A stretch of DNA of 21,622 bases from a virus, in the IMG/VR virus record IMGVR_UViG_3300035698_010737, positions 1 through 21,622 of that record, one strand, 5' to 3'. This document shows positions 13,331 through 14,187 of the stretch, piece by piece. The stretch's first letter is position 1, and every line of letters begins with the position of its first letter. The notes beneath the pieces were generated by a model that did no database searches, was not told where the DNA came from, and saw only the letters and a program-made list of their open reading frames with translations. The position numbers and the translations under genes are program-made.

Positions 13331-14014
13331 ATGAGCGATCGACCAGTCGCTCCCGCTGCCCTCTCAGAGCTGAAAGACGACTCGAGCGCTGCTCGTGGGT
13401 TGACTAGGCTCGAGAAACTAGCCGAGGGACGCAATCACACAAGGGCATCCCAGTTCCCTGGGACCGACATCGACTTCGTTTGGAGGATCGTTGGTGGAAC
13501 GGGGAAGCAGAATTCTCTCGCTTCGGCGATCGAGTCCTTCGACGAGATGGGAATCCCGCACGAGCTGCGGATGAACACCGACCTCGAAGACGAAGTCGTT
13601 TGGCAGATTCTCGCTCGAGCGATGCGCAATCCAGACGTGGCCGGGGACAAGAAGAACCCGTTTCCCAAACCGCTGGGAGATGCCGATTCACTGCGTGAGG
13701 TTCTAACAACCGACGAGCGCGACATCCTCATGCAGGAGTATCTCGACTTCGAAGACATCGTCGACCCGGACCCGGTCCGGCAGCCCGAGCGGTGGCACGA
13801 GGACGTCGAGAGAGCGCTAAAAAAAAGTCCCGAGGACGCCGTGCAGGTCTTGAGCAACTTAGGGCTTCGCGTTCTCGTGAGCTATTTGCTTACTACGGTA
13901 CGGCCGCGATTGATTGCACCGATTCCCAACTTCGATACTTCGGATATTTCTACAGAGCCGCACGAGAGCCCGACACCCCCGACGAGTCAGGAGGCGACGC
14001 CGACCGCAAAGTGA
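13331..14014 (+). CDS. Tail assembly chaperone (Mu gp41 position)
   Basis: This 227-residue zero-frame protein lies between tube and tape measure, the invariant place of tail assembly chaperones. The N-terminal half is polar; residues 72-105 are helical (IPHELRMNTDLEDEVVWQILARAMRNP), followed by a LTTDERDILMQEYLDFED segment typical of the chaperone 'L..eE...L...Y......'. An A8 run at 13819-13826, read as CTA AAA AAA AGT, allows slippage to the -1 frame at residue 165, where 120 more codons stay open. The zero-frame tail after that point is Pro/Thr-rich. ATG 13331 is used. It is not transported and is not expected in the finished virion. Confidence 0.78.
   Translation: MSDRPVAPAALSELKDDSSAARGLTRLEKLAEGRNHTRASQFPGTDIDFVWRIVGGTGKQNSLASAIESFDEMGIPHELRMNTDLEDEVVWQILARAMRNPDVAGDKKNPFPKPLGDADSLREVLTTDERDILMQEYLDFEDIVDPDPVRQPERWHEDVERALKKSPEDAVQVLSNLGLRVLVSYLLTTVRPRLIAPIPNFDTSDISTEPHESPTPPTSQEATPTAK
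13819..13826 (+). promoter_or_regulatory. Probable -1 ribosomal frameshift site (A8)
   Basis: Eight A residues are read in the zero frame as ..A AAA AAA A.., giving the slippery heptamer A AAA AAA at 13819-13825. Slippage by one base back gives AAA AAA AAG and enters a frame open until 14187. Programmed frameshifts in this gene are conserved in tailed phages, making a short G-type and a long G-T-type chaperone. The site and frame are seen directly; use of the site is inferred. Confidence 0.6.
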
Positions 14015-14187
14015 AGAAGATGCGGATGGTAAGTCGAAAGAAAATTGGGCCGCTCGAGAGATTTAGAAGTTGGAGTTCGCGCGAACAGCCGCAAGCTCAA
14101 CGCGGACCTGCGCAAGGCACGAAAGAAATTTCAGAAATTTGGCAAAGAGGCGAAGCGAGACTTAAAGCGTTCCTTCGGCAAAATTAG
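13825..14187 (+). CDS. -1 frame extension of tail assembly chaperone (T domain)
   Basis: The -1 frame after the A8 site codes for 120 residues. Together with the first 165 residues of the chaperone it gives a protein of about 285 residues. The extension contains SRELFAYYGTAAIDCTDSQ and GGDADRKVKKMRM, and its codons around 13960-14025 (gac, gcc, ggc, aag) look like those of neighbouring genes. It overlaps the start of the tape measure gene by about 140 bases, longer than usual, so the real end of the functional domain may be earlier. It is unlikely to be a separate gene, since it lacks a good ribosome site. Confidence 0.5.
   Translation, partial: KSRGRRAGLEQLRASRSRELFAYYGTAAIDCTDSQLRYFGYFYRAAREPDTPDESGGDADRKVKKMRMVSRKKIGPLERFRSWSSREQPQAQRGPAQGTKEISEIWQRGEARLKAFLRQN

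Follow-up and report, generated by a model that had tools for sequence, protein, structure and literature searches.

Does the single gene which lies between the tail tube and tape measure genes of an uncultured Mu-like virus specify one tail assembly protein or two, and, if two, through which change of reading frame is the second produced? The DNA analysed here, referred to at its full length of 21,622 nucleotides as the window, comes from an uncultured virus (a virus record of 21.6 kb) and is a fragment which carries a Mu-like head and contractile-tail module. An earlier interpretation, made from the letters alone (the sequence-only reading), had placed a -1 frameshift at a run of eight A residues within this gene. 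We propose, with a probability of roughly 0.8, that the locus represents a tail assembly chaperone gene of the lambda G/GT type, with a -1 ribosomal frameshift at the A run.

Gene neighborhood of the locus

Genes specifying a Mu-type portal, protease, major head protein, neck proteins, sheath, tube, tape measure and baseplate were found within the module. A single ORF, located at positions 13331 to 14014 on the plus strand, sits between the tube and tape measure genes as assigned through PHROG and Pfam, an order which is identical in the related loci described below; based on this position and on its homologues, it is predicted to encode G, the zero-frame tail assembly chaperone of 227 aa. Its upstream neighbor, the tail tube protein gene (12906 to 13319, plus strand), was assigned through PHROG 185 (tail tube; E = 0.001) and is homologous in the related loci. 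The tape measure protein gene (14045 to 15880, plus strand), which initiates at a TTG codon, matched both PHROG 794 (E = 4e-25) and Pfam PhageMin_Tail (E = 2e-18), and conservation of its N-terminus begins at the start codon.

Elsewhere in the window, a small ORF of 143 aa (2693 to 3124) returned an N-terminal CCHC zinc-knuckle match (Pfam PF00098; E = 1e-4, slightly above the cut-off), which is unexpected for a phage. A 536-aa ORF (3517 to 5127), directly upstream of the portal gene, occupies the position expected of the large terminase and produced no significant sequence match in Pfam, PHROG or PDB. The final ORF (20303 to 21622), which continues past the window end, combines a Mu Gp48-like domain with a weak match of the laminin-G/ConA-like type.

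Slip site and reading frames in the window

The A8 run occupies positions 13819 to 13826, 165 codons into the ORF, with CT before it and GTCC after it. In the frame set by the ATG at 13331, the sequence is read as CTA AAA AAA AGT, which places the slippery heptamer A AAA AAA (13819 to 13825, plus strand) in the X XXY YYZ register, as the sequence-only reading had described. Past this site, the zero frame continues for 62 further codons, to 14014, and the -1 frame remains open for 120 codons to a stop at 14187, yielding a G-T fusion of 285 aa; both the open length and the approximate size of the fusion had been given correctly from the letters alone. The -1 frame extension, designated T (13825 to 14187, plus strand), with a core domain at about 13840 to 13970, is supported by a motif conserved in seven loci, by predicted helices and by a drop in dS in close homologue pairs. 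The -2 frame closes early, as had been claimed, though after 9 codons rather than the 8 originally counted.

Taken by itself, the window provides modest evidence. An A8 run is seen once when both strands are counted, where 0.36 would be expected from shuffling, and the run on its own is not significant. Given the zero-frame protein, the probability that the -1 frame would be open across the overlap was 0.10 when synonymous codons were resampled and 0.02 under permutation, which constitutes weak evidence in the window alone. The statement that codon choice in the -1 frame is like that of the neighboring genes holds only in part: the log-odds per codon in the 0/-1 overlap (0.10) is intermediate between those of true frames (0.24 +/- 0.19) and wrong frames (-0.22 +/- 0.19), but the last 46 codons of T, which overlap the tape measure gene, score -0.13 and are wrong-frame-like. 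It is the comparison across loci which is considered to furnish strong, conclusive evidence.

Conservation of the slip site in related loci

Six relatives, all of them uncultured viral contigs (L002, L003, L005, L019, L020 and L021), were found through searches using the sheath protein and alignments of the fusion and tube, and together with the window they make up a set of seven loci. No relatives were obtained when G or the tape measure was employed as a single query against viral contigs, nor in two scans of bacterial genomes, and G had no match among cultured phages. The portion of G before the slip site shares 35 to 47% identity with its six homologues. An A8 or A9 run (A8 only, in the case of the window and L019) is present at the equivalent place and in the NNA AAA AAA register in all seven loci, the -1 frame being open for 89 to 122 codons and the -2 frame closing within 5 to 9 codons in each. 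The sequence-only reading had proposed an alignment of homologues as a check, and had regarded homologues without the A run, or with early stops in the -1 frame, as grounds for abandoning the frameshift; none of the six (0/6) is of this kind, and all were positive for the run and for the conserved -1 frame.

The length of the zero-frame tail after the slip site varies from 12 to 68 codons across the loci. Because the -1 frame of L021 opens just 5 codons ahead of the run, and the zero frame of L003 ends 12 codons past it, the switch between frames is confined, if the site is shared, to 17 codons containing the A run. In L003 (3577 to 3613), the zero-frame motif of the relatives (LASYLLTLDNPP) persists past the stop of the zero frame, which suggests that the zero-frame tail may be dispensable.

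These loci also bear on whether T could be an independent gene with a start codon of its own, the overlap with G being ordinary gene packing. The -1 frame of the window does contain a GTG at 13792, which lies 33 nt upstream of the slip point, but a convincing Shine-Dalgarno sequence is not found ahead of it, and the stretch from the -1 opening to the T core contains no ATG, GTG or TTG in L002, L003, L005, L019 and L021. An internal start for T was rejected because five of the seven loci have no usable -1 start codon, and we regard this explanation as the least probable of those considered.

Dual-coding constraint

In two close pairs of loci, L002/L005 and L020/L021, dS falls approximately sevenfold at the slip site. 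For L002/L005, a dS of 1.34 in the part of G upstream of the site drops to 0.18 where the zero and -1 frames overlap, and is 1.22 in the portion of the tape measure gene past T, with 73 third-position changes in the 164 to 167 codons upstream versus 9/68 after the site (p = 4e-6), while for L020/L021 it declines from 1.11 before the slip site to 0.16 after it (p = 3e-4). A sliding comparison revealed that the low-change stretch spans the region from the slip site to the T stop. The drop in dS in these two pairs means that both frames are constrained, and selection therefore acts on both in at least two of the pairs. The low synonymous change in the overlap which had been put forward as a further check is consequently present, and the -1 frameshift postulated for the gene between tube and tape measure draws support both from this reduction and from six independent homologous loci; the double constraint, like the site, its register and the conserved -1 protein, is an established feature of the locus.

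The window and L019 have diverged too far for this comparison to be informative (p = 0.28). The zero frame of L003 stops early, and its differences from the window are concentrated at third codon positions of the -1 frame (27, 20 and 42 by position, thus 42 of 89). Within the T/tape measure overlap, lower third-position change was detected in L002/L005 (p about 0.03) and was absent in L020/L021 (p = 0.40) and window/L019 (p = 0.73); selection on T where the tape measure gene overlaps is not established.

Homopolymers are error-prone, and every sequence considered here derives from uncultured-virus contigs, such that an error in sequencing, or a mutation shifting the frame within the run, might have disguised a gene which is truly one continuous ORF. 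However, the frame relation is equal in seven separate contigs, whether the run is A8 or A9, and the zero frame is also constrained past the site in both L002/L005 and L020/L021. Coding in the -1 frame only would, moreover, free its third positions, yet L002/L005 display the low change given above. Sequencing error was rejected on the agreement of the seven contigs and the constraint on both frames, and is deemed very improbable.

Proposed mechanism of frameshifting

Ribosomal slippage is the most likely mechanism by which the -1 frame would be reached. It is proposed that most ribosomes stay in the zero frame and produce G, and that in a minority, at CTA AAA AAA, both lysyl-tRNAs slip back one base together, following which translation would continue in the -1 frame to generate the G-T fusion with its small helical C-terminal T domain. 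This tandem movement of both lysyl-tRNAs on A AAA AAA represents the simplest reading of the site, and in E. coli heptamers of the V_VV.A_AA.R type rank among the -1 motifs of highest efficiency (PMC4066793). If the parallel with lambda holds, the tape measure protein may be coated by the G portion of the fusion and the tube protein recruited by T.

An identical fusion could be generated by ordinary translation if RNA polymerase were to add one A on the A8/A9 run in some transcripts. The length of the run in all seven loci exceeds the need of a heptamer; runs of more than seven A residues are used in this manner in bacteria, as in Thermus dnaX with A9 (PMC3711429), and slipping on nine A residues has been described (PMC5009743). 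The exact X XXY YYZ register is, however, retained in every locus and would be unneeded by the polymerase, the run reaches only A8 in the window and L019, and the tail chaperone cases known so far have been attributed to the ribosome (PMC5009743). We infer that slippage at this site occurs on the ribosome and not in RNA polymerase, and that the ratio of G to G-T is presumably set in this way for a role in tail assembly; that polymerase slippage on A8/A9 sets the chaperone ratio in this virus group, alone or with ribosomal slippage, in place of the purely ribosomal frameshifting of lambda, appears unlikely.

With regard to stimulatory elements, RNA folding predicted a possible hairpin at 13832 to 13876 (plus strand), 6 nt 3' of the heptamer. 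The fold of 13827 to 13897 has a free energy of -28.4 kcal/mol (z = -3.0); in a 100-nt context, the fold is weaker (z = -1.85) and its structure different. A shared downstream structure was sought across the seven loci and none was found, the window hairpin not being conserved in the relatives, and its function as a stimulator is suggestive only. No consistent candidate for an upstream Shine-Dalgarno-like stimulator was apparent by eye.

Predicted properties of G and T

T carries a motif with the consensus QFRVAxARELFAYFGxPAIDLTDWQL, which is conserved in all seven loci, and its predicted fold comprises three confident helices over residues 3 to 47. The structure prediction for G was poor (pLDDT 43). 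Neither protein matched a family in Pfam or PHROG, the T model had no match in the PDB, and a T profile gave a weak match (probability, 6 to 12%) to the T regions of cultured Mu-like phages. Tail chaperones diverge widely, and likeness in sequence or fold to a known family is not strictly required of a member.

Comparison with lambda, Mu and Mu-like phages

The gpG and gpGT proteins of lambda are tail assembly chaperones, in which the binding partner of G is the tape measure protein and that of T the tube protein, and most tailed phages employ a -1 shift, with Mu employing -2 (PMC5009743, PMC4378225, PMC2628397). As in lambda, the gene of the window virus lies between those of the tube and tape measure, with the -1 slip located close to the 3' end of G and a C-terminal T domain reached solely by frameshift. 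Unlike lambda, it possesses an A AAA AAA heptamer, and its T overlaps the tape measure gene; sequence similarity of the chaperone to known families was not detected. This overlap amounts to 143 nt in the window and 80 to 158 nt across the seven loci, and is longer than its counterpart (under 20 nt) in the 13 cultured phages with Mu-type sheaths.

The statement that Mu uses -2 was correct, both according to the literature (PMC5009743, PMC4378225, PMC2628397) and on Mu's own sequence. Mu gp41 occupies the equivalent place in a contractile-tail module of equal type, but has a CGG GGG CGA site with a -2/+1 frame, whereas in the seven loci the early closure of the -2 frame sets the gene outside the -2 subclass of Mu gp41. 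Among 13 cultured phages with Mu-type sheaths, compared by frame layout only, CGG GGG CGA with a -2/+1 frame continuing as far as the tape measure gene was found in Mu, B23, Pmp9, MuM16-2 and martha (5/13), and a -1 layout with an A or T run in SuMu, ST405-OXA48phi1.1, 3927AP2, PY223, BZS1, YPCBV1, ST64B and BgVeeders33 (8/13). As CGG GGG CGA and the -2/+1 frame are common to these five cultured Mu-type phages (L008, L009, L011, L012 and L014), the -2 shift of Mu looks to be conserved across hosts.

The two best cultured matches to the sheath of the window virus are Haemophilus phage SuMu and Klebsiella phage ST405-OXA48phi1.1. Their gp41-type genes likewise carry an A8 near the end of G, with a -1 frame which continues towards the tape measure, but the register is CTT AAA AAA AAG (heptamer A AAA AAG), G is shorter, with about 100 residues before the slip, and there is little sequence similarity. 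The sequence-only reading had set this branch apart from Mu: the sign of the shift does differ, but this is not special, as -1 would be the common choice among Mu-type tail modules given that 8 of the 13 cultured phages have a -1 layout. The contrast with Mu, which shifts by -2 at GGGGGC, is considered real but not new.

Implications for Mu-type tail modules

We regard the gene as a new and divergent addition to the frameshifted tail assembly chaperones of the lambda G/GT class, and its -1 frameshift appears to be real, conserved and ordinary, providing two chaperone forms from one gene. The tail-chaperone frameshift is now extended to an uncultured Mu-like virus group whose chaperone is unrecognized by the family libraries searched, and which offers a clean comparative case of seven loci with one site. 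The coexistence of -1 and -2 versions among Mu-type tail modules is confirmed.
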